64,000 bases of DNA from Flavobacterium crocinum (lineage in GTDB: Bacteria > Bacteroidota > Bacteroidia > Flavobacteriales > Flavobacteriaceae): NCBI RefSeq assembly GCF_003122385.1, contig NZ_CP029255.1, forward strand, positions 4,712,001 through 4,776,000, given 5' to 3'. Positions 838 to 61,250 of this stretch are shown one piece after another. The first letter of the stretch is position 1; every line of letters starts with the position of its first letter. The notes below the pieces were generated by a model. It had not been told where the DNA came from, searched no databases, and was given only the letters and a program-made list of their open reading frames with translations. The position numbers and the translations under genes are program-made.

Positions 838-1983
838 TTACTCTTCTTCCGCTTTTACTGCCGTAACCACTTTTCCTTCTTCACCCGGCCAAACTCCGTT
901 TTTAATTGGAAGCGCTACTAATTTGCTAGGATCGATTTTCACATATTTCAGTTTTTCTCTTCTCCAAGTATATACAATATGTACCATTCCATCTGAACTT
1001 TGAATCATCGAAGGATAAGAATATTGACTGATTTTTGAATCTTCTAAAACTAAAGCGGCATTCCAGTGAATTCCGTCTTTAGAAACCGAAACATTCAATG
1101 GCGTTCTTGGGCCTTTTGCTTCTTTTCCTGGAGGTAAAACGTGATTGTAAACCAATAAATGTCTGCCGTCTTTAAGTGTTACAGCATCTGTTCCCGAGTT
1201 GTTGTTTGGTAATCCAATTAACTCAACATCCGACCAAGTTTTTCCGTTGTCTTTTGAGAAGGTGCTGAAAATAGCTCTGTTTCTAGTTCTTCCGATAGCC
1301 TGAATACTTCCATCTTTATGAAATAAAATACTTGGCTGAATCGCATTAATTTTTTGTTTTCCTCTCGGAAGCGTATCGCCCATTACCCAAGTTTTCCCGA
1401 AATCCGGAGTAGATTCCATACGAAGTCTCCAGCCGTCGCCTTCGATACTTGACGGACATAACAATGTTCCGTTACTTAATAATACAGGTTTGTTTTTGAT
1501 TGGCCCTAAGAAACCGTCTGGCATTTTTTTAGCCTCAGACCAGGTTTTTCCGCCATCAGATGAAGTTCTGATTACGCCCCACCATTCTGATGGTTTTGGA
1601 CCTATTTTGTAGAATAACATTAAATCGCCACCCGGAATCTGATATAAAACTGGGTTCCAAGTTGGTAATCTCGGGCCTTCTTTCATGACACCGTCGGCTA
1701 CTTTTACGCCTTCGTTCCAAGTATCGTTTCCTTTTGGTTTAATGGCCACATAAATGCAAACATCTGGGTGTCTTTCGTGCGTTCCTCCAAACCATGAGGC
1801 AACTAAATCACCATTTGTAGCTTCGACAATTGTAACGGCGTGGCAAGATGGATAAGGTGCTTTATCGTAAATAAACTGATCTACTAAAATTCCTTCTTTC
1901 CAAGTCTTTTTTTCTAAAGCCGACTTACAACTTCCTAAAAGGAAAAGTCCAAACAAGACAAATGCTAATTTTGTTATCTTCAT
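838..1983 (-). CDS. BNR/Asp-box beta-propeller lipoprotein (sialidase-fold exo-glycosidase or lyase)
   Basis: 381 aa with a lipoprotein signal (lipobox LGSC, Cys at residue 19), so probably membrane anchored. Four Asp-box-like motifs follow: SSDGGKTW near 145, TPDFGKTW near 190, SKDNGKTW near 245 and SKDGIHW near 305. The N-terminal WFGGTHERHPDV segment is typical of the BNR_2 group often annotated as exo-alpha-sialidase. True sialic acid is not a pectin sugar, so in this locus a ketodeoxy sugar of RG-II (Kdo or Dha) or a uronate is the likelier target; this is inference. It has its own promoter with the PUL operator (2064-2108) and is the first gene of a unit with the epimerase-fold lipoprotein downstream. 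Confidence 0.75.
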   Translation of the reverse strand: MKITKLAFVLFGLFLLGSCKSALEKKTWKEGILVDQFIYDKAPYPSCHAVTIVEATNGDLVASWFGGTHERHPDVCIYVAIKPKGNDTWNEGVKVADGVMKEGPRLPTWNPVLYQIPGGDLMLFYKIGPKPSEWWGVIRTSSDGGKTWSEAKKMPDGFLGPIKNKPVLLSNGTLLCPSSIEGDGWRLRMESTPDFGKTWVMGDTLPRGKQKINAIQPSILFHKDGSIQAIGRTRNRAIFSTFSKDNGKTWSDVELIGLPNNNSGTDAVTLKDGRHLLVYNHVLPPGKEAKGPRTPLNVSVSKDGIHWNAALVLEDSKISQYSYPSMIQSSDGMVHIVYTWRREKLKYVKIDPSKLVALPIKNGVWPGEEGKVVTAVKAEEE

Positions 1984-2063: not shown

Positions 2064-2108
2064 TAAAAATAACACCAAAAAACTAACAATGCATCCTGTA
2101 CTGTCCCG
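2064..2108 (-). promoter_or_regulatory. PUL-type promoter with operator, copy 1
   Basis: Plus-strand CCTGTACTGTCCCG at 2095-2108 is followed, 23 nt away, by TAAAAATA at 2064-2071. In gene direction this reads CGGGACAGTACAGG, 23 nt, TATTTTTA. The arrangement and spacing equal those at 35565-35609 and 58711-58755. The element matches the other two at 11 (versus the GH78 copy) and 10 (versus susC) of 14 positions and is the weakest of the three. It lies about 80 bp upstream of the BNR lipoprotein start at 1983 and only about 20 bp past the stop of the GH78 gene. Confidence 0.6.
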
Positions 2109-30032: not shown

Positions 30033-32012
30033 TTATTCTTGGTAGTTGAAGGTTCCAAGTCCACCAAAGTTATCATTCCAACCAATAGTTTGCAGCAACC
30101 AAGGATTTGACGTTAAAGCTGTAGTATTTAAACCATTAATGTAGTAGTTCGGATTAAACTTAATATTTACAGCTGCTCCATTAAAATTATCCATAGGCGT
30201 AACTAAATTTGTACGAATAAAGTTTGTATTGTAGAATGTTGCTAAAGTTGCTAATTGAGCATTGAAATTTGTTGCATCAGGATCAGCTACTATACTTGCA
30301 CGTGCAGTTGCCAATGGATCTGTAGTTGCAGACGTTGTTGCAACTCTATATTGTAAGAAGTTACCAGTACGTTTTGTTCCGTTAATTGGAGTTAAACCTA
30401 ATTTGCTTACAGTACCTCCAGTAACCCCAGGTAAAACTTCATTATCATATAACATCCATCTTTGTACATCCCAAAAACGTTTTCCTTCGTAAGCTAACTC
30501 TACCCTTCTTTCATATAAAACAGCTTCAATTGCTTTGTATTTATCAGTTAGTACACCAATTCCGTAATTATTATTCCCTTGAGGGATACCAACACGATTT
30601 CTAATTCTTCCTAAATAAGCTAAAGTATTATTTGTCTGACCTAAAGCGGCATAACATTCAGCGATATTCAACAATAACTCAGCATAACGATATTCAAAAA
30701 TATCAGTTCCCGAATATTGGAAGTTAGTTTCTTTACTAGCAGCAGTATTTGACATTTTTCTAATGAAAGCCGGACTAGATATAGCGGTGTTTCCATCTGA
30801 AAAACCTGCTTTATTTGAGCCATCTACCCAGCGGTATGCCCAGAGAACACTATTAGGAGTTTCTTTGCTTCCCCATTTAACACCAGAAAAAGCAAATGTT
30901 CTATAGAATCTAGGATCTCTATTAAGGAAGAAAGTAAAATCGTTGTAACCATTTGCTGCAGTCGGTCTACTACCATCCGCCATTGGGAACAAATCAATCA
31001 TTTCTTTAGGAGCAGCGACTCCTCCTCCTGTTCCACCTAAGCTTAATAAACGAATTCCTTTTTCCCAAGAATTATTAATAGCTTGCGATGTAACACCAAC
31101 TCCACATAGTTGTACCGTGATAGCTTCTGAACAAAATGCATTATCAATTAAAAACATTTGTTCCCATTGTTTTGCAGTACTTCCATATAATCCATATCCG
31201 TCAGCAGTCAATTGAGCTTCTGCTTCCAATCCAGCCTTTAAAGCCGCTTCCCAACGCTCGTTTGAACCATCCCAGTTTTTATTAAATAAAGGACTTGCAA
31301 ATGTTAGAAGTACTCTTGATTTTTGTGCTAAAGCTGCTCCTCTTGTAAAACGACCATAAGAACCAGAAGCCCAATTTCCAGGCAATAAACTTGCCGCCAT
31401 GTCTAAATCTTTTACAATTTGTGCTACAACTTCAGAAGGTTTAGCTCTTGGAATTTGAATAGATGGATCATTAGCTGACGCAGCCTGAACAGTCGTAACA
31501 ATAGGAACTCCTCCATAAACACGCATCAAATCAAAGTACTGCATAGCACGCATGTAATACATTTGCCCTTTTGCCTGATCACGAAATGTTTTATCTAAGT
31601 TTGAACCTTTTACATCAATATCTTCTAAGAAAGCATTACATTCTCTAATTCTATTATAGGGATGATTATTAATGCTTGTTCCTAATTTTGCTCCATAATA
31701 ACCACTTGCATCCTGTGAGTTTATAATGGTTTTATTAGGATTTATAAAATCCTGTGTCCCACCTAATTCTTCTGTCAATCTTGAATTGGTATCTGTATAG
31801 GAACCAATAACTGTAGCTGTCGGCGATTTGTAAGCGTTATAAAAATCATAGTACTGATTGTCTACATAGGCTTGCGCACGCTCTTGTGTCTGGTAGAATG
31901 TATCATCGTAAAAACCATAACCTTTCTTGTCCTTTAGAAAATCATCACTACAAGAAGCAGCACCTGCAGCAAGTAATAGTGATAGTGTTATATATTTAAA
32001 TGGTGTTTTCAT
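30033..32012 (-). CDS. susD: SusD/RagB-family glycan-binding lipoprotein
   Basis: 659 aa lipoprotein (lipobox AASC near residue 20). The residues after the Cys, SDDFLKDKKGYGFY, are acidic as in surface-exported Bacteroidota lipoproteins. SusD features: FYQTQERAQAYVDNQYYDFY, NAFLEDIDVKGSNLD, GQMYYMRAMQYFDLMRVYGG, YRYAELLLNIAECYAALGQT, and the C-terminal RRVELAYEGKRFWDVQRWML. It forms the hinged lid over the SusC barrel and binds pectin oligosaccharides outside the cell. It lies 18 bp after susC and is presumably co-transcribed. At 659 aa it is somewhat longer than SusD itself. Confidence 0.95.
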   Translation of the reverse strand: MKTPFKYITLSLLLAAGAASCSDDFLKDKKGYGFYDDTFYQTQERAQAYVDNQYYDFYNAYKSPTATVIGSYTDTNSRLTEELGGTQDFINPNKTIINSQDASGYYGAKLGTSINNHPYNRIRECNAFLEDIDVKGSNLDKTFRDQAKGQMYYMRAMQYFDLMRVYGGVPIVTTVQAASANDPSIQIPRAKPSEVVAQIVKDLDMAASLLPGNWASGSYGRFTRGAALAQKSRVLLTFASPLFNKNWDGSNERWEAALKAGLEAEAQLTADGYGLYGSTAKQWEQMFLIDNAFCSEAITVQLCGVGVTSQAINNSWEKGIRLLSLGGTGGGVAAPKEMIDLFPMADGSRPTAANGYNDFTFFLNRDPRFYRTFAFSGVKWGSKETPNSVLWAYRWVDGSNKAGFSDGNTAISSPAFIRKMSNTAASKETNFQYSGTDIFEYRYAELLLNIAECYAALGQTNNTLAYLGRIRNRVGIPQGNNNYGIGVLTDKYKAIEAVLYERRVELAYEGKRFWDVQRWMLYDNEVLPGVTGGTVSKLGLTPINGTKRTGNFLQYRVATTSATTDPLATARASIVADPDATNFNAQLATLATFYNTNFIRTNLVTPMDNFNGAAVNIKFNPNYYINGLNTTALTSNPWLLQTIGWNDNFGGLGTFNYQE

Positions 32013-32030: not shown

Positions 32031-35000
32031 TTAGAATGATACGTTAAAATTAAGCGACCAAGTTCTAAGTGTAGGATAATTTACAGAAGAATTATCATAC
32101 ATATTTCTATAATGATCCGGATAAGGATTGTATAAATCCCAAAGATTATTACCTGTTATACCTAACGTGATAGCAGCGATTTTCGTGTCTGCAAAAACTT
32201 TCTTAGGAATATCATAATTAAGACTTAAGTTTCTAACAAAACAACGGAAAGTATTTAGCTGCCAAAAATCTGATGGGCTAGACATATAAGTCCATTGTGC
32301 AACGTTAGGATATTTACCATTTGGATTATCATCACTGTACATATCTCTCCAGAAACTCTCACGAGACCACATATTGTGCGCAGATGAAGTGCCTTGGTTT
32401 ACTAAGTCAACAAAATTGGCTCCTCCCCAAGAAGTTGATATTTGAGTTCTCAAAGAAAATGCGTCATATTTGAAACCTAAGTTTGTTATGACATTATAAG
32501 TTCTACTGCTGTTTGCTAATTTCACATAATCATTTTCTTTGATAATTTGCCCATCAGCCCCTGACATTGAACCATCTGGATTAAGCTGACCTGCAACATC
32601 CTGATAAGCCAAAGATCCTTTTCTCATTCCGGCAGCAGAATTAATATCAAAATATCTTGGTACTCCACCAACTGCAGTAGCACGTTCTGTTAAATATGCC
32701 CAATAATTTGCAATATCTTCATCTGTACGCAAAATACCATCTCCTGTTGATGTTCCTTTCCAAACTGCAAATCCCCATACTGGATTAAATGTTGAATAAC
32801 TCTCTCTTTTAGTTTGATTAGATGGAACCATATTTCCCTGATCAGGATACAATTTGATTTCATTATTGTTATAAGCAAAGTTTAATCCAACATTATAACT
32901 CATATTACTTTTTATCTTATCACTCCAATTAAGGCTAATTTCATGTCCCCATGCATCAATCCTACCGTAATTTTGTTCAGCATAAGCTCCTCCTACAGAA
33001 ATTGGCACACCTACGGCACTACTCATATCTGTCAACATTTCTTTATTCTTATCATAATAGAAATCATAAGTTAAGCTTAATCTGTTTTTCAACAAAGTAA
33101 TATCAACTCCTACGTTGTTTTTTATAGTAGTATCCCAAGTTACATCTCTATTTGGATTTACTCTAGGAGTTAAACCATTTCCGTTCCATCCACCACCACT
33201 AGTAGCTGTACCAGGACCGAATTGAAATCCTTTATCTACGATAAGATCATAATACTGTTCCCACCTCCATGGCATAATATTATCTTTACCCGTTTTCCCG
33301 ATAGAGTAGCGAATTTTAAAGAAGTCAACCCATGGCACACTTTTTTCAAACCAATTTTCTTTAGACATTACCCAACCGACTTGAACAGATGGGAAAGTTC
33401 CCCAATAATTTTCCGGCGCAAATTTTGTCGAAGCATCACTACGAAGAATAAATTGGAACAAATATTTTTGTTTAAAACTATAATTCAAACGTCCAAAATA
33501 AGACAACGTACCTCCCTCTACTTTTGTAGCCTGACTATTAGAAGTACTCAATGTACCGGCTGTACGATAATCTCCTAAATAGTCTTTTCCAGTTTGTTCG
33601 TATGCCAAACGTGTAAATGTACTATATACTTCAGAAGCTTCACCTCCTACCATAGCCCCAATTTGGTGATCTCCAAAAGTTCTGTCGTAGTTAATCAAGA
33701 AATCTCCCTGGGTACTTTTACCATTTGTAGTATTATAATATACTCTAGAGTTTCTTACGTTAGTTTCTAGTATATAACTACCTGTCGGATTAGTGGTAGC
33801 ATTATAAAAACTAGGATTAGCTGCGCTCGCTAAGTGTTTGTCTTGAAGTTGGTAATCTCTAATTCTAACTAAATCGTATGGCAGTTGAATTTGTTCATTG
33901 TAAGTTGAACTTTGATTTCTTGAATAACTTACTTTGAAAGATAATCCTTTTACTGCTGCTACCTTATAATTCAATGAAGCATTGACATTAAATGTATTAT
34001 CATCAGTAGTCTGATGTGAACCATTATTTAAATTTGCAAAATAGTTCCAGCCTGCAATATTATTATTTGCATTTGCACTTCCAAAGTTTTTGTTTGAATT
34101 AGGAAATGGAGATACATAATAATTTTTCCCATCCAAAGTTGTCTCCCAAGGCACATGTTGTGGCATGTGTAACAAGAATCCATAATCAGCTTGTTCTCCA
34201 CCTGCTGCAGAACCATAACTACCGTCACTAATATTTGATGATGCTTTAGTAAAAGATTTATCGATAAATCCAACATTTCCAGAAACAGAAGCAGAAAAAT
34301 CTAAATTCTTAGCAATTTTTGCATTAATACCAGTACGGAAATTCCACTTCTCATATTTTTGATATCCTAAATTAGCATCTTGTGTCAGATAAGTTGCACC
34401 AGCAAAATAGGTAATATCTTCGCTACCACCACTCACGTTGAAAGAGTGTTTTTGTTGAATAGCCGGTTTCCAGGCTTCATCTAACCAGTTATAATTTAAA
34501 CCTTTCATTTGCTCCAATTCTGAATCTGAATATATGGTAGCCGGATCAATTACAGCTGGAGCTGCTACTCTTGATTTAAAATATCTATTACTAAAAACAC
34601 CAAACTCATAAGCATTCAATACTTTACTATGACTAACAGCATCATTTATAGCAAATTGACTGTTATATGAAAATTTTGCTTTACCTGCTTTACCACGTTT
34701 GGTTTTTACCACAATTGCTCCTTGTGAAGCACGAGAACCATAAATCGCAGCCGAACCATCTTTTAAAACCGTAATACTTTCAATTTCTGAAGGATCTAAT
34801 CTATTAAACTGTTCTAATGTAGGTTTACCGTTACTTGGATCTACCTGAATCATATCGTCAATAATAATCAATGGAATATCAAACCCCCCATCTTTAGACA
34901 AACTAAAAGTTTGACGAATCTGAATACTTCCCGCTTCTCCGGGACGACCAGAACCACTAGTAACATTAAGATTTGGAACTAATCCTTTTAATGCATCAGA

Positions 35001-35429
35001 TAAATTAGTTACTGGCAAATCCATTACATCATCTGGTTTGATAGTAGCAATAGCTCCAGTAAGTTCCTTCTTCTTCTGACTACCATAACCAACTACTACA
35101 ATATTTTCTAATTGATTGAAATCGTCTTCCATTTTCACATTAACAATAGAACGATTATTAAGAGGTACTTCTATCTTTTTCATTCCAATGAAAGAAAAAA
35201 CTAATGTTCCTCCACTTTTAACTTTAATCTGGTATTTTCCATTGTAATCTGTAGTGACTGAATTTTTAGTAGATTTTTCAGTTACGTTAACTCCCGGTAA
35301 CAGGCCACCTAAATTATCGGTAACTGTTCCTGTAACTGTAACTTGATTACTTGAGTTTTGAGCAAAACTCAGCACACTCATCAGTGTAAACAAAAGAAAA
35401 CTACATCTTTTTATAAGTGCTTGTTTCAT
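32031..35429 (-). CDS. susC: SusC/RagA-family TonB-dependent outer-membrane transporter
   Basis: 1132 aa with a signal ending SFAQ near residue 24. Residues about 28-110 are a carboxypeptidase-D-like regulatory domain (VTVTGTVTDNLGGLLPGVNV). The plug begins with the SusC signature VVGYGSQKKKELTGAIATI near 113. The beta-barrel fills the rest, ending SLNFNVSF with a terminal Phe as usual for outer-membrane barrels. No STN domain precedes the plug, so no FecR/ECF signalling is expected. It imports pectin fragments with SusD. It is the first gene of its transcription unit, behind the promoter at 35565-35609 with a leader of about 130 nt. Confidence 0.96.
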   Translation of the reverse strand: MKQALIKRCSFLLFTLMSVLSFAQNSSNQVTVTGTVTDNLGGLLPGVNVTEKSTKNSVTTDYNGKYQIKVKSGGTLVFSFIGMKKIEVPLNNRSIVNVKMEDDFNQLENIVVVGYGSQKKKELTGAIATIKPDDVMDLPVTNLSDALKGLVPNLNVTSGSGRPGEAGSIQIRQTFSLSKDGGFDIPLIIIDDMIQVDPSNGKPTLEQFNRLDPSEIESITVLKDGSAAIYGSRASQGAIVVKTKRGKAGKAKFSYNSQFAINDAVSHSKVLNAYEFGVFSNRYFKSRVAAPAVIDPATIYSDSELEQMKGLNYNWLDEAWKPAIQQKHSFNVSGGSEDITYFAGATYLTQDANLGYQKYEKWNFRTGINAKIAKNLDFSASVSGNVGFIDKSFTKASSNISDGSYGSAAGGEQADYGFLLHMPQHVPWETTLDGKNYYVSPFPNSNKNFGSANANNNIAGWNYFANLNNGSHQTTDDNTFNVNASLNYKVAAVKGLSFKVSYSRNQSSTYNEQIQLPYDLVRIRDYQLQDKHLASAANPSFYNATTNPTGSYILETNVRNSRVYYNTTNGKSTQGDFLINYDRTFGDHQIGAMVGGEASEVYSTFTRLAYEQTGKDYLGDYRTAGTLSTSNSQATKVEGGTLSYFGRLNYSFKQKYLFQFILRSDASTKFAPENYWGTFPSVQVGWVMSKENWFEKSVPWVDFFKIRYSIGKTGKDNIMPWRWEQYYDLIVDKGFQFGPGTATSGGGWNGNGLTPRVNPNRDVTWDTTIKNNVGVDITLLKNRLSLTYDFYYDKNKEMLTDMSSAVGVPISVGGAYAEQNYGRIDAWGHEISLNWSDKIKSNMSYNVGLNFAYNNNEIKLYPDQGNMVPSNQTKRESYSTFNPVWGFAVWKGTSTGDGILRTDEDIANYWAYLTERATAVGGVPRYFDINSAAGMRKGSLAYQDVAGQLNPDGSMSGADGQIIKENDYVKLANSSRTYNVITNLGFKYDAFSLRTQISTSWGGANFVDLVNQGTSSAHNMWSRESFWRDMYSDDNPNGKYPNVAQWTYMSSPSDFWQLNTFRCFVRNLSLNYDIPKKVFADTKIAAITLGITGNNLWDLYNPYPDHYRNMYDNSSVNYPTLRTWSLNFNVSF

Positions 35430-35564: not shown

Positions 35565-35609
35565 CAAAAATATAACGATACTATATTAGAACCGTCCTGC
35601 TCTATCCTG
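35565..35609 (-). promoter_or_regulatory. susC promoter with PUL operator, copy 2
   Basis: Plus-strand CCTGCTCTATCCTG at 35596-35609 and CAAAAATA at 35565-35572 are separated by 23 nt. In gene direction this is CAGGATAGAGCAGG, 23 nt, TATTTTTG, the latter a perfect Bacteroidota -7 box (TAnnTTTG). No -33 TTG is seen at the usual place, which fits an activator-dependent promoter with the operator covering the -33 region. The rest of the 690-bp gap 35430-36121 is very AT-rich, holds no gene, and carries the half-sites and terminator listed separately. Confidence 0.72.
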
Positions 35610-56504: not shown

Positions 56505-58691
56505 CTATAGAGCTTTGTAACTCACTTTATACTCCACATTCGGTTTTACAATCAATTGATATTTATTTTTTGCTAATTCTGTAATCGTTCCCGAGTTTGT
56601 TTTGGGTTTGCTGGCACTTTCAAAAATCAATTTTCCTTCTCCTTCACCTGATTTTACTTTGATTTCTTTGGTACTACAATACACGGCAACTTCTCCGTTT
56701 GGTGTTGGCACTTTTCCTTCCATCCATTTTAAACCGCCTAAACTAGGTTTGATTTCGTATTCTGAATATCCTGGAGCAGTTGGTTTTACACCTAAATAAT
56801 ATTTTCCTAGTAAATAAATCGGACTTGCGCCCCAAGCGTGGCAAAGGCTTTTCCCGTAAGGACGACCATACATCGTTAAATGTTCCGTTCCTTTTTTGTT
56901 GGGGTTGTATTCTTCCCAGAAAGATGTTGCGCCTTCATTCAACATTCCGCCCCAATAATCTTTCATTTCTTTTAAAACATAATTCTGCTCGCCCATTGCG
57001 CATAAAGCTTCCAACTCATAAAAACGCATATATGGCGTTGTGATTTGAAGGACATCTTTATTCAGTAACACTTTATTTTTTACACTTTGTTTTTGTTCTT
57101 CATTAAAATAATTGAAGAAAATTCCAAACATATTCGCGTATCTGGTTACTATGTTTTGCATTTTTCCATCGATACGCTGATGTTTCATCACGTTTTCTTT
57201 TTTATCCCAAAAGACATCAAATAATTTCGTTTTTAAATCAGTTCCTAATTTTTGATATTGTTTTTGGTCTTCGGTTTTACCAGCAATTTCAGCACTTACT
57301 GCCATTGCTTCAAGGCTTCTCGCTAAAAGCATTTGCTCAAAACTCACTTCACCTGTTTTTGGCAATCCGTCTGCCCAGTCAATAAAAACCCAATCGCCTT
57401 CTAATGGTTCAAGGAATCCGTTTTTGTTTCTTCTTTCTAAACAAAAATCCATAAGTGATTTCATTCTCGGATAAAAAGTTTTGATGAATTTCGTATCGCC
57501 TGTGTGCAAGTAGTAATCGTAAACACCTACAAACCAATACAACGAATAATCCATTATGATATTTACATGAGCCGTTACAGGGTCTTTTCCGCGAAGCGCT
57601 AACAGTGTTCGTTCTACCGAAGCCGAATCAAAGAATAAATAATAATTCATCAAATAACTTTGATATGCGTCGCCAGACCAAACCCAACGGTCACGTTTAA
57701 TTCCGTCGATAAAAAATTCACGAGACGTTAAATGCATTGTGTAAGCCGACACATCCCAAATTTTATTCAATTGCTCATCCGATGATTTGAATGCGCCACG
57801 ATAGTCTAAAGGCAGATACTCATAAAGCATCGAAATCGAATCGTATTTTACTCCTGCATCTGCTTGCACCTGAACATAACGGAATGCTTTTGAACCGTTA
57901 TGAGTGTAAATTTCAGATTGTTTTCCATCGAAAGATAGATGATCTAAAGTTTCGCATTTGGCAGAATCCAAAGCTTCTTCACGAGATTCTCCATAATAAA
58001 GAGCTAGTTTCCCTTTTCCTTTTAAACCATGAATTTTGATATAACCAAAAGTCTCTTTTCCAAAATCTACCAACTGACCCGCTCCAATTTTTTCTGTTTT
58101 TTTAGCACTTAAAGGTTTTGTCGTCAATTTGAATCCGGAAGGTTTGCTTTCTGGCGAATTAAAATTCCAAGAACCAACAGGAACCCATGGCGTACCAGAT
58201 TGTTGCGCTTTTCCGGTTTCGTCAATCCAAAGTTTATCTTCGTTAGTAACTTTCCATGAAGCATCAGATTTAACGTATTTTCCATTAATATAAATAGCCG
58301 GCAATACTTCCTGATTATAAACTTTAAAGGAAATTTTGTGTTTTCCCGCAGGAACTGCGATTGATTTTGGTTGTCCGTAAATCTGAACGCCGTCTAAAAG
58401 CAATTGAAAAGGTCCTTCCGAGTAAATTTTCACTTCGTCTGGCTGCGGAATATCTACTTCTGTTTGAAAAGTAACCAAAGCATACGGACTATAATATTGC
58501 CAAAGCGGAGGAAATACGGCTTCACGTTCGGTGCGTCTTACCTGCATTTTATTGCTTAACCACACTTCGAAATCTCCTGGATACCAAATCCATGTCGCTT
58601 CTTTTGAGTTTTCCTGTGCCGATGATGGCAAACAAAAAATAAGGGCAACAAAAATAAGCAAGATCTTAAAAATGGAAGAGCGGTTTAGCAT
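56505..58691 (-). CDS. GH78-type alpha-L-rhamnosidase (short, divergent)
   Basis: 728 aa with a signal ending PSSAQ near residue 26. It has an N-terminal sandwich (LLLDGVQIYGQPKSIAVPAG), a rhamnosidase-type concanavalin domain (LVDFGKETFGYIKIHGLKGK), the six-hairpin barrel and a C-terminal sandwich (GVKPTAPGYSEYEIKPSLGG). The usual DCPQRxER block is replaced by GIKRDRWVWSGDAYQSYLMN near residue 329, which keeps the RDR-W-GD spacing. It lacks the first Ig domain of the other two copies. It is the first gene of the 58.7-36.1 kb unit, with its start only about 20 bp from the -7 box, so the 5' leader is very short. Confidence 0.85.
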   Translation of the reverse strand: MLNRSSIFKILLIFVALIFCLPSSAQENSKEATWIWYPGDFEVWLSNKMQVRRTEREAVFPPLWQYYSPYALVTFQTEVDIPQPDEVKIYSEGPFQLLLDGVQIYGQPKSIAVPAGKHKISFKVYNQEVLPAIYINGKYVKSDASWKVTNEDKLWIDETGKAQQSGTPWVPVGSWNFNSPESKPSGFKLTTKPLSAKKTEKIGAGQLVDFGKETFGYIKIHGLKGKGKLALYYGESREEALDSAKCETLDHLSFDGKQSEIYTHNGSKAFRYVQVQADAGVKYDSISMLYEYLPLDYRGAFKSSDEQLNKIWDVSAYTMHLTSREFFIDGIKRDRWVWSGDAYQSYLMNYYLFFDSASVERTLLALRGKDPVTAHVNIIMDYSLYWFVGVYDYYLHTGDTKFIKTFYPRMKSLMDFCLERRNKNGFLEPLEGDWVFIDWADGLPKTGEVSFEQMLLARSLEAMAVSAEIAGKTEDQKQYQKLGTDLKTKLFDVFWDKKENVMKHQRIDGKMQNIVTRYANMFGIFFNYFNEEQKQSVKNKVLLNKDVLQITTPYMRFYELEALCAMGEQNYVLKEMKDYWGGMLNEGATSFWEEYNPNKKGTEHLTMYGRPYGKSLCHAWGASPIYLLGKYYLGVKPTAPGYSEYEIKPSLGGLKWMEGKVPTPNGEVAVYCSTKEIKVKSGEGEGKLIFESASKPKTNSGTITELAKNKYQLIVKPNVEYKVSYKAL

Positions 58692-58710: not shown

Positions 58711-58755
58711 TAAAGATAAGTGTTATTTTTACATTTGACAACCTGCACTATCCTG
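58711..58755 (-). promoter_or_regulatory. Promoter with PUL operator, copy 3
   Basis: Plus-strand CCTGCACTATCCTG at 58742-58755 and TAAAGATA at 58711-58718, separated by 23 nt. In gene direction CAGGATAGTGCAGG, 23 nt, TATCTTTA. The 14-mer differs from the susC copy at one position only. A TTG directly after the operator (58741-58739) sits 20 nt before the -7 box, so a -33-like element may be present here. The rest of the 424-bp gap 58692-59115 is the nested repeat at 58859-59097 and AT-rich DNA. Confidence 0.7.
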
Positions 58756-59115: not shown

Positions 59116-59934
59116 CTAAGCAATCATTCTATCGTTCTCATTTTCATCTTCTAAAATATAATTAGAAGGCGTTTTTCCTAAATGCTTTTTGAACATATAA
59201 ATAAAGGCGCTGGTATTTTCGTAACCTAAATTGAAAGCAATCTCTTTTATGGATTGTTTTTCGCCCAAACGTTTTATGGCTTCTAATAATTTTAGACGAG
59301 TTCGCCAGTCGCTGAAATTCATTCCAAGTTCTTTAATAAACAATCGGGATAAAGTTCTGGTACTCATAAAAGAAAGCTCGGCGTAATAATCTATTGTGTT
59401 TTTACTGGCAATATCTTCCATTAAAAGCTCGACTACTTTTTGTAATCTTTCATGATTAGTTGTAGGCAAGAAAGTGGCACTTGGCTCAATTAAAGCCAAT
59501 TCATCCAAAAAAACCGATATAATTCTATGTTGCGGAGGCGTTAAATTTCCTTCTATTCCAAAAGAAATGATTTTGAAAACCAGTTGCTTTAAAAACATCG
59601 GAATATCAAAAGAAAAACTCTTCTCTGGTAATCCTTCCATTGCAGAAGGATCGATAAAAACGCTGTAATAATTAACGTCTTTCTGAAAAGTAACCTGATG
59701 TTCTACTCCGCCTGGAAGCCACAAACCCTGTAACGGATTCACAACCCAAATATGATTGCCCACAACCACGTTCATTACACCACGGGTTGCATAAATTAAT
59801 TGTCCTCTGGGATGCGAATGCGAAATACACATTTCATTGGTTACCATTTCGGTATAACCAATAACAGGAATCGATGGATCAACTCTGTATCCATGTTCCT
59901 GCGCCATTCGATATGTCCGAATCTGGTTATTCAT
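59116..59934 (-). CDS. AraC-family regulator with N-terminal cupin
   Basis: 272 aa, no signal, cytoplasmic. Residues about 15-110 form a cupin (CISHSHPRGQLIYATRGVMN, WLPGGVEHQVTFQ) and residues about 165-262 the double helix-turn-helix of AraC/XylS proteins (YYAELSFMSTRTLSRLFIKE, SIKEIAFNLGYENTSAFIYM, KKHLGKTPSNYI). The start could also be the Met at 59907, because CAAATATA at 59939-59946, a good -7 box, would leave the first ATG leaderless. It is divergent from the MFS gene, as in NimR/NimT-like pairs, so the exporter is its most likely target. It is also the only DNA-binding regulator visible near the PUL. Confidence 0.88.
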   Translation of the reverse strand: MNNQIRTYRMAQEHGYRVDPSIPVIGYTEMVTNEMCISHSHPRGQLIYATRGVMNVVVGNHIWVVNPLQGLWLPGGVEHQVTFQKDVNYYSVFIDPSAMEGLPEKSFSFDIPMFLKQLVFKIISFGIEGNLTPPQHRIISVFLDELALIEPSATFLPTTNHERLQKVVELLMEDIASKNTIDYYAELSFMSTRTLSRLFIKELGMNFSDWRTRLKLLEAIKRLGEKQSIKEIAFNLGYENTSAFIYMFKKHLGKTPSNYILEDENENDRMIA

Positions 59935-59938
59935 TGTC

Positions 59939-59979
59939 CAAATATAGCAATTCCGACATTACTATTCTTTTAATCTTTG
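59939..59979. promoter_or_regulatory. Divergent promoter region of the AraC and MFS genes
   Basis: TATATTTG (minus strand, 59946-59939) is a perfect TAnnTTTG box for the regulator. AATCTTTG (59972-59979, plus strand) is a 7-of-8 match for the MFS gene with a leader of about 50 nt. No copy of the PUL operator is present here. Confidence 0.4.
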
Positions 59980-60035
59980 CAAAAAATAATACAGCTGTTG
60001 TTTTTTAACCTAATTTAAAAATCAAAAAATATCTC

Positions 60036-61250
60036 ATGGACACTATTAAAGCAAATCCTGACATAGTTAAAAAAACCACCTATTCGATCTTATTTATCAT
60101 CAGTTTTTCTCATTTAATTAATGATCTTTTACAGGCTGTTGTTCCTTCTATTTATCCTCTTTTAAAGGATAATTTCAATTTAAGTTTTACTCAAATCGGA
60201 ATCATTACTTTTACTTACCAAATCGTGGCTTCTATCCTTCAGCCTTTTGTGGGAATGTATACCGATAAAAAATCTAAACCATATTCTCTGATTGTTGGAA
60301 TGTGTTTTACCATGATTGGGCTTTTCTTTGTTTCGATCGCTTCGAGTTTTATCAACTTATTATTATCCGTAAGTTTAATTGGAATTGGTTCTTCGATTTT
60401 CCATCCTGAATCTTCACGTGTAGCGCATTTGGCTTCGGGCGGAAAAAGAGGTTTGGCGCAGTCTATCTTTCAATTGGGAGGAAATGCAGGAAGTGCCATC
60501 GGACCTTTATTAGCAGCATTTATTGTAATTCCGCATGGACAATCTTATATCGCTTGGTTTTGTATTATTGCGTTAGTTGGTGTTTTTGCTTTGTATAAAA
60601 TTGCGATTTGGTACACGGCACATTTATCTGAAAGAAATGCTAATAAAGCTTCTCACCAAATTGAAACACATCATTTGTCTAAAAACAGAGTAATTGCTTC
60701 GTTAATTATTCTTTTGGTTCTGATTTTCTCTAAGTATTTCTACATGAGCAGTATTACAAGTTATTATACTTTCTTCCTTATAGATAAATTTCATATTACG
60801 ATTCAGCAATCACAAGTATATTTATTCTTGTTTTCTGGCGCTGTTGCTGCAGGAACTTTAATTGGAGGACCAATTGGAGATCGATATGGCAGAAAATATG
60901 TAATCTGGGTTTCAATTCTTGGTGTTGCTCCGTTTACTTTGATGTTACCTTATGTTTCTCTTTTCTGGGTTGGAACTTTATCTGTAATTATCGGGTTGAT
61001 TCTTTCTTCGGCATTCTCAGCAATTTTGGTCTATGCAACTGAATTAATGCCTGGAAAAGTGGGACTTGTTGCGGGTCTTTTCTTCGGATTTGCTTTCGGA
61101 ATGGGCGGATTGGGTTCTGCTGTTTTAGGAAAAATTGCCGATGCAACGAGTATCGAATATGTATTTAAAATTTGTGCATTCCTGCCTTTAATTGGGGTTA
61201 TTACTGGATTCTTGCCTAATTTAGAGAAGAAAAAGAAAGCTCAGGAATAA
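60036..61250 (+). CDS. MFS transporter, fosmidomycin-resistance (Fsr)/CynX-like
   Basis: 404 aa with about 12 hydrophobic segments and a short central cytoplasmic loop near residues 185-210. The motifs LIGIGSSIFHPESSRVAHLA, AQSIFQLGGNAGSAIGPLLA and GGPIGDRYGRKYV are typical of the fosmidomycin-resistance group of drug:H+ antiporters. It is the only plus-strand gene in the window and is divergent from the AraC gene. It is probably a drug or metabolite exporter not connected to pectin use. Convergent with the symporter, separated by a bidirectional terminator. Confidence 0.88.
   Translation: MDTIKANPDIVKKTTYSILFIISFSHLINDLLQAVVPSIYPLLKDNFNLSFTQIGIITFTYQIVASILQPFVGMYTDKKSKPYSLIVGMCFTMIGLFFVSIASSFINLLLSVSLIGIGSSIFHPESSRVAHLASGGKRGLAQSIFQLGGNAGSAIGPLLAAFIVIPHGQSYIAWFCIIALVGVFALYKIAIWYTAHLSERNANKASHQIETHHLSKNRVIASLIILLVLIFSKYFYMSSITSYYTFFLIDKFHITIQQSQVYLFLFSGAVAAGTLIGGPIGDRYGRKYVIWVSILGVAPFTLMLPYVSLFWVGTLSVIIGLILSSAFSAILVYATELMPGKVGLVAGLFFGFAFGMGGLGSAVLGKIADATSIEYVFKICAFLPLIGVITGFLPNLEKKKKAQE

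Follow-up and report, generated by a model that had tools for sequence, protein, structure and literature searches.

A fixed-distance direct-repeat element as the putative operator of a rhamnose-linked regulon of polysaccharide utilization genes in Flavobacteriaceae

The window, i.e., the whole stretch of 64,000 nucleotides analysed here (positions 4,712,001-4,776,000 of the 5.88-Mb, one-contig genome of Flavobacterium crocinum), contains three transcription units headed by the same element, a direct repeat lying at one fixed distance from the -7 box. The same element precedes genes of a second PUL, a pectate-lyase-like gene and the rhamnose operon of the same genome, as well as genes in other genera; it is not specific to the window locus. 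It quite probably serves as the operator of a rhamnose-linked regulon in the family Flavobacteriaceae, with a GntR-type class-II activator that responds to rhamnose.

The window locus encodes a large set of enzymes: rhamnosidase-type ones (GH78-type and GH106), GH95, GH28, GH127, GH2 and apiosidase-like proteins, together with a BT_1020-like propeller protein, a pectinesterase, a SASA esterase and a SusC/SusD pair, whose closest SusC relatives found belong to Flavobacterium. Judging from known Bacteroides enzymes, we take this set to fit rhamnogalacturonan II. The main features are reported in Table 1. The unit headed by the site at 2064 probably begins at gene 838-1983 and extends beyond the window. 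Adjoining the window, a single chain (L043:423-2930) joins a GH141 insertion domain and an L-rhamnose mutarotase (rhaM) domain.

Table 1. Elements and principal genes of the window (positions are those of the window).
Feature	Position	Strand	Details
Element before susC	35565..35609	-	18-mer operator 35592-35609, 19-nt spacer, -7 box TATTTTTG 35565-35572
Element before the rhamnosidase-like gene 56505-58691	58711..58755	-	Operator 58738-58755, spacer, -7 box TATCTTTA 58711-58718
Element before gene 838-1983	2064..2108	-	Operator 2091-2108, spacer, -7 box TATTTTTA 2064-2071
SusC-like TonB-dependent receptor, headed by the first element	32031..35429	-	Pfam Plug, CarbopepD_reg_2
SusD-like protein behind susC	30033..32012	-	Pfam SusD_RagB
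Alpha-rhamnosidase-like protein, headed by the second element	56505..58691	-	Pfam Bac_rhamnosid-like_N, Bac_rhamnosid6H
BNR_2-repeat protein, headed by the third element	838..1983	-	Pfam BNR_2
AraC-family gene, 272 aa	59116..59934	-	HTH_18, AraC_binding

Since the window genes lie on the minus strand, the coding order is operator, 23 nt after its first 14 letters, and -7 box; in full, an 18-bp direct repeat CAGGAYAG-NN-CAGGAYAG is followed by 19 nt and by the -7 box TANNTTTG. An earlier note on this DNA had described three 14-mers at identical spacing from a -7 box, and its sequences, coordinates and spacing are exact when read on the minus strand, as is the agreement of the 14-mers (13/14 between the first two, 10/14 and 11/14 between the third and the others). 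The 10-bp period that it had assigned to the repeat is also borne out; the repeat in fact spans 18 bp rather than 14, and its second half is degenerate (CAGGTTGT) in the 58711 site. A search for CAGGATAGWRCAGG-N23-TATNTTTR on the minus strand with up to three mismatches returned exactly three matches in the window (mean of the shuffle control 0.01; 0/100 shuffles reached three), in keeping with the statement that no other copy with this spacing was found in its gaps. The operator-first order read on the plus strand gave no match in the window, because on that strand the -7 box precedes the operator; the reversed order of the two parts gave none in the whole genome either. The 14-mer without the spacing was dropped as a search pattern, being too unspecific: 15 matches in the window versus 7.6 expected, a number reached by 1/100 shuffles, and 207 genome matches at up to two mismatches versus 74 for the reversed pattern.

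The window and the fetched loci yielded 131 distinct sites with up to three mismatches, which were thinned to 42 non-redundant ones (less than 70% mutual identity). Their consensus is CAGGAYAGNACAGGAYAG, a direct repeat with a 10-bp period, followed by 19 free positions and by TANNTTTG. The letters within the search pattern are favoured by the way in which the sites were picked; this does not apply to the empty spacer, whose columns carry at most 0.20 bits each. Outside the pattern, the most informative column (0.54 bits) lies downstream of the -7 box.

The distance between operator and -7 box is nearly invariant. When the spacer was left free from 8 to 38 nt with no mismatch allowed, 61 matches were found in 30 of the 150 Flavobacterium genomes; 59 of them have 23 nt, and the two exceptions, with 22 and 12 nt, both belong to the same genome (G117). 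The reversed-pattern control gave no match over the same 31 spacers and 150 genomes. A second histogram places 71/102 operators at 23 nt and none at the other spacers from 10 to 40 nt, but this sample is biased, since part of the loci had been fetched with the spaced pattern, and the spacing claim rests on the 59/61. The operator thus stands at a fixed distance and occupies the place of the -33 element. A TTG located 17-23 nt before the -7 box occurs in 1/42 sites versus 9/72 TANNTTTG words of the window, a scarcity partly forced by the second half-site, which covers most of those positions. The second half-site would then replace the usual -33 element, a geometry typical of class-II activators. 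The near-invariant distance, together with the occupied -33 place, supports an activator-type placement, in line with the single activator inferred in the earlier note.

In the F. crocinum genome, a tolerant form of the spaced pattern gave 11 matches versus two in the reversed control, and a second form gave 10 versus none. All the 11 tolerant matches lie in sense at a short distance before a gene: three in the window, six in the second PUL, one before a PelZ-like gene and one before rhaT. The second PUL (4.507-4.542 Mb), of rhamnogalacturonan type, has sites before three SusC genes and before GH106, SASA and GDSL genes, and it also harbors two GH88 genes as well as GH43, GH2 and GH115 genes. 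The site at 2.98 Mb precedes the gene of a secreted protein of T9SS type that weakly matches the pectate lyase PelZ. The one at 4.896 Mb precedes rhaT and then a rhamnulose-phosphate aldolase-dehydrogenase gene, in an operon that also encodes L-rhamnose-isomerase-like, rhamnulokinase-like and two lactate-oxidation-like (LutB-like) proteins. Genes for both the transport and the pathway of L-rhamnose are therefore targeted; RhaT and RhaD-ADH score above the NCBIfam cut-offs, while isomerase and kinase are similar but remain under the equivalog cut-offs. Many matches lacking a link to pectin genes would have spoken against a regulon; in this genome, 11/11 precede PUL, pectate-lyase-like or rhamnose genes. 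That the three window units share a regulon, as initially proposed, is strongly supported, and this regulon extends much further than the window. In the second PUL, an identical extra stretch, TACACTGTAAATTAGGT, starts 25 nt upstream of the operator at two susC promoters out of three (L045:12744-12813 and L045:18468-18537).

A scan of related genomes, which the earlier note had suggested, disclosed that the element is conserved at orthologous loci; the counts for the susC, BNR and rhaT sites were obtained with fixed-spacing patterns and so measure conservation, not spacing. The susC site is present in 49/62 SusC-homologue loci, that is, in 49/50 of the Flavobacterium-type ones (the exception being L114) and in 0/12 of those of other genera, including Bacteroides, Phocaeicola and Pedobacter. 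The BNR site was found, with one or two mismatches, in 14/14 regions fetched for it, and 500 shuffles of its own upstream region never gave fewer than five mismatches. The rhaT site (AAGGAYAGTRCAGGAYAG...TTATTTTA) occurs in all the 26 loci where the GntR gene adjoins rhaT; the remaining four of the 30 GntR loci scanned have no rhaT inside the 1.5-kb flank. An element resembling the 58711 site is found in several Flavobacterium genomes. Overall, the motif with at most one mismatch is present in 32/150 Flavobacterium genomes, and in a second draw the strict motif was found in 19/299 genomes of the family, belonging to 18 genera.

Two sets of motif regions were inspected individually: 20 picked from the genus matches, mostly outside the two main PULs (L170-L189), and all the 20 second-draw matches outside the genus Flavobacterium (L266-L285). 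In other genera, motif copies lie by rhamnosidase-like genes (L267-L270, L273, L275, L280, L281, L284); some of these regions (L267-L269, L273, L275, L281) are perhaps ulvan loci, a reading based only on rhamnosidase- or GH88-like neighbours. Some sites in other genomes have no visible sugar link: the gene neighbourhoods of L170-L172 and L266 display no visible link to rhamnose, and at L184 no gene in sense lies directly behind the site. In L170, L171 and L172, three Flavobacterium genomes carry the motif with N23 at similar places; in L170, the site precedes a protein that weakly matches MG2 and the TonB plug, with a TPP-enzyme gene alongside and no visible link to sugars.

The best candidate regulator is a GntR-family protein of 356 aa (G000:C1:4896591-4897658), whose gene is divergent from rhaT and lies about 120 kb outside the window. 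It combines a GntR winged helix (PF00392, above the cut-off) with a weakly matched sugar-binding domain (PF13377, Peripla_BP_3; 26.1 bits, just under the cut-off of 26.5), and in the 26/26 GntR-rhaT loci the operator is conserved between the regulator gene and the catabolic operon. Orthologs with at least 57% identity exist in 32/150 genomes of the genus, 31 of which have the motif, and 31/32 motif genomes have the GntR gene (Fisher p 8e-30). In the family draw, 19/19 strict-motif genomes fall within the 60/299 whose GntR protein is at least about 50% identical (Fisher 4e-15). Both values are overstated, because related genomes are not independent. As for the exceptions in the genus, G056 has the GntR gene and was counted as lacking the motif, yet its rhaT site is present in the fixed-spacing scan, and G061, an assembly of 180 contigs, has the motif without a close GntR. 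In the family, 41/60 GntR-bearing genomes lack the strict motif, the only form of the site counted there. A GntR gene beside rha genes, together with the motif, is also found in G117, G360, G337 and G437. In three other genera (L271, L277 and L278), the GntR gene adjoins the rha aldolase gene, with the motif (3, 3 and 2 mismatches, respectively) in or near the GntR-rha gap. Among 20 GntR loci that were fetched, a motif copy with up to three mismatches occurs in 5/5 of the clade with at least 57% identity versus 3/15 of the paralogue loci. GntR-type genes lie in 8/40 motif loci and HTH_18 genes in 5/40, in comparison with 4 such GntR and 64 HTH_18 proteins in the F. crocinum genome.

This co-occurrence is no proof of binding, since the presence of the GntR gene goes with rhamnose and pectin genes anyway. 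Proteins of the GntR family mostly recognize inverted repeats, and repression is the mode of action of many of its sugar regulators. The 42 non-redundant sites give a direct repeat with a 10-bp period, not an inverted one; both this repeat and the activator placement are unusual for the family, and the repeat type is the strongest argument against GntR as the binder.

The events might be envisaged as follows. L-rhamnose released from rhamnogalacturonans would enter the cytoplasm; rhamnose as the inducer is suggested by the gene content. The GntR protein, carrying L-rhamnose or a product of it, would occupy the 18-bp direct repeat with its subunits side by side on one DNA face. With 19 nt between the repeat and the -7 box, and with the repeat standing where a -33 element is missing, the bound protein would contact RNA polymerase there and hold it, in a class-II manner, at a promoter that would be weak alone. 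The transcription of importer, enzyme and rhamnose-pathway genes would be raised together, so that the three rhamnogalacturonan-II-type units of the window, the second rhamnogalacturonan-type PUL and the rhaT operon might be switched on jointly, with activation rather than repression as the expected mode of action. On balance, we favour a family-wide extension of this scheme, in which a GntR/sugar-domain class-II activator, acting through a tandem 10-bp repeat whose distance is fixed, would subject whole loci (for rhamnogalacturonan II, rhamnogalacturonan I and perhaps ulvan), susC/susD importers included, to a single monosaccharide signal in the cytoplasm rather than to hybrid two-component sensors encoded within the loci.

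In gut Bacteroides, where PUL control is best known, most loci are assigned a sensor of their own, according to the available text of PMC3878776; in the present case, a single sugar-pathway regulator seems to be shared by several pectin loci and perhaps by algal ones. Since both an operator and a candidate gene are named, the regulon idea is directly testable. If the GntR protein is the binder, it would represent an unusual member of its family, with regard to both the activator placement and the direct repeat. The strict spacing might also allow rhamnose-linked polysaccharide loci to be predicted in the genomes of Flavobacteriaceae from a simple promoter rule.

Some known systems share single traits with this one. 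The following statements on them are drawn from the accessible parts of the cited works. In Bacteroides thetaiotaomicron, RhaR (BT3768), a member of the AraC family, is a positive regulator of L-rhamnose catabolism with a predicted direct repeat of 21-bp period and a single reconstructed target operon (PMC3870299, PMC3878776). It is alike in controlling rhamnose genes in Bacteroidota, whereas here the candidate is of GntR type, the repeat has a 10-bp period, and many units, with susC among them, are involved. DeoR-family RhaR proteins have imperfect direct repeats with a period of 10-11 bp before rhamnose genes, their motifs are lineage-specific, and the Rhizobium member is a repressor (PMC3870299). 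The shape of the repeat, as described there, is similar, and the protein family is another one; sites of such a shape are therefore not foreign to rhamnose control. In Erwinia chrysanthemi, the control exerted by the rhamnose regulator RhaS extends to the rhamnogalacturonan genes rhiTN (PMC3870299); RhaS shares with our candidate this reach, but it is an AraC-family protein of a gammaproteobacterium. AusR of Zobellia galactanivorans, compared here by a review's description only, is a GntR-family protein controlling flavobacterial PULs, but as a repressor of alginate genes (PMC8286568). The available text of the rhamnose survey PMC3870299 contains no occurrence of "GntR" or "Flavobacter", and that of PMC5698469, PMC12125979 and PMC9296495 no mention of the element. 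A literature search covering few subscription papers retrieved, in the texts at hand, neither a GntR-type rhamnose regulon reaching into PULs nor a description of the element.

A different regulator might, of course, bind the operator. The earlier note expected a protein with two HTH motifs, i.e., an AraC-like one, which might be either the AraC-type product of the window gene 59116-59934 or, on the Bacteroides model, a hybrid two-component system encoded elsewhere and sensing oligosaccharides of pectin. Direct repeats do occur among AraC-type sites, and the F. crocinum genome encodes 64 HTH_18 proteins. Moreover, in the accessible part of PMC3878776, the Bacteroides pectin PULs (BT0981, BT4111 and others) are rhamnogalacturonan loci with susC/susD assigned to hybrid two-component systems, which have a periplasmic sensor domain, an AraC-type DNA-binding domain and 12-14 bp repeats separated by 6-9 bp spacers; for BT0981/BT0977-1030, no motif could be predicted there. 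The distribution of the genes speaks against such a protein. Orthologs of the window AraC protein (at least 69% identity) exist in 22/150 genomes, 19/22 with the motif, and none is found at E 1e-20 in 13/32 motif genomes; G065, G074 and G113, for instance, have no AraC ortholog though their sites resemble the susC site. For this reason the window AraC was set aside on its distribution, which fits far worse than that of the GntR gene; this covers one of the 64 HTH_18 proteins, and this one is not an AraC-domain regulator tracking the operator. HTH_18 genes occur in 0/50 Flavobacterium-type susC loci (flanks of up to 10 kb) and, in the 5/40 motif loci that harbor them, at about the frequency that their density predicts, with no enrichment of AraC or hybrid two-component genes near the sites. 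Over the window and its two 20-kb flanks, no hybrid two-component system was found, and no HTH_18 protein besides the 272-aa AraC, at variance with the Bacteroides loci. Finally, the rhamnose repeats reported for the AraC family have a period of 21 bp and those of the hybrid systems the architecture given above, in contrast with the 10-bp period observed here (available parts of PMC3870299 and PMC3878776). On the whole, an AraC-type binder is unlikely.

The window AraC gene is divergent from an MFS transporter gene at the PUL edge (59116-61250), and the two look like a self-contained regulator-transporter pair. In 15 of the 22 genomes, its ortholog adjoins the copy of the motif that belongs to the rhamnosidase-like gene. 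Its product may resemble the NimR/YeaM-type regulators, given the divergent MFS gene; none of the NCBIfam equivalogs reached the cut-off. The related susC genes of Bacteroides faecis (45% identity, L126) and Pedobacter (28%, L138) have an HTH_18 protein of hybrid two-component size (1449 or 1375 aa) within 10 kb, a point in favour of AraC-type control, and the operator was not found near them. The control system has possibly changed between lineages, the Pedobacter SusC being just 28% identical.

A further explanation is that several GntR/sugar-domain paralogues, one per sugar or per PUL, share the operator class, so that the units answer to different proteins. The second PUL does encode its own GntR, 44% identical to the rhaT-linked one (G000:C1:4550741-4551787 = L046:12738-13790). 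Paralogues of 33-35% (L174, L177, L272, L282) and of 47% and 39% identity (L222, L225, L232) adjoin motif copies, and for this reason the operator may serve several GntR proteins; in addition, the helix-core letters SRDT are common to 29/30 aligned proteins. Against this, the motif is absent from 12/15 paralogue loci (31-52% identity, up to 20 kb) versus its presence in 5/5 of the clade with at least 57% identity, which it tracks across genomes. A division of the units among paralogues thus seems improbable, and a single rhaT-linked GntR activator remains the preferred reading. The near-invariant spacing to the -7 box might also recall a two-part promoter of an alternative sigma factor, with the repeat as the -35 part, but this is extremely improbable: a tandem repeat of 18 bp exceeds the usual length of a -35 element, the GntR gene match in 31/32 motif genomes would be left unexplained, and the -7 part is the ordinary TANNTTTG box of Bacteroidetes.

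The repeat can also occur in a longer array: at L282:10041-10095, three tandem CAGGACAG units are located beside a GntR paralogue of 34% identity.
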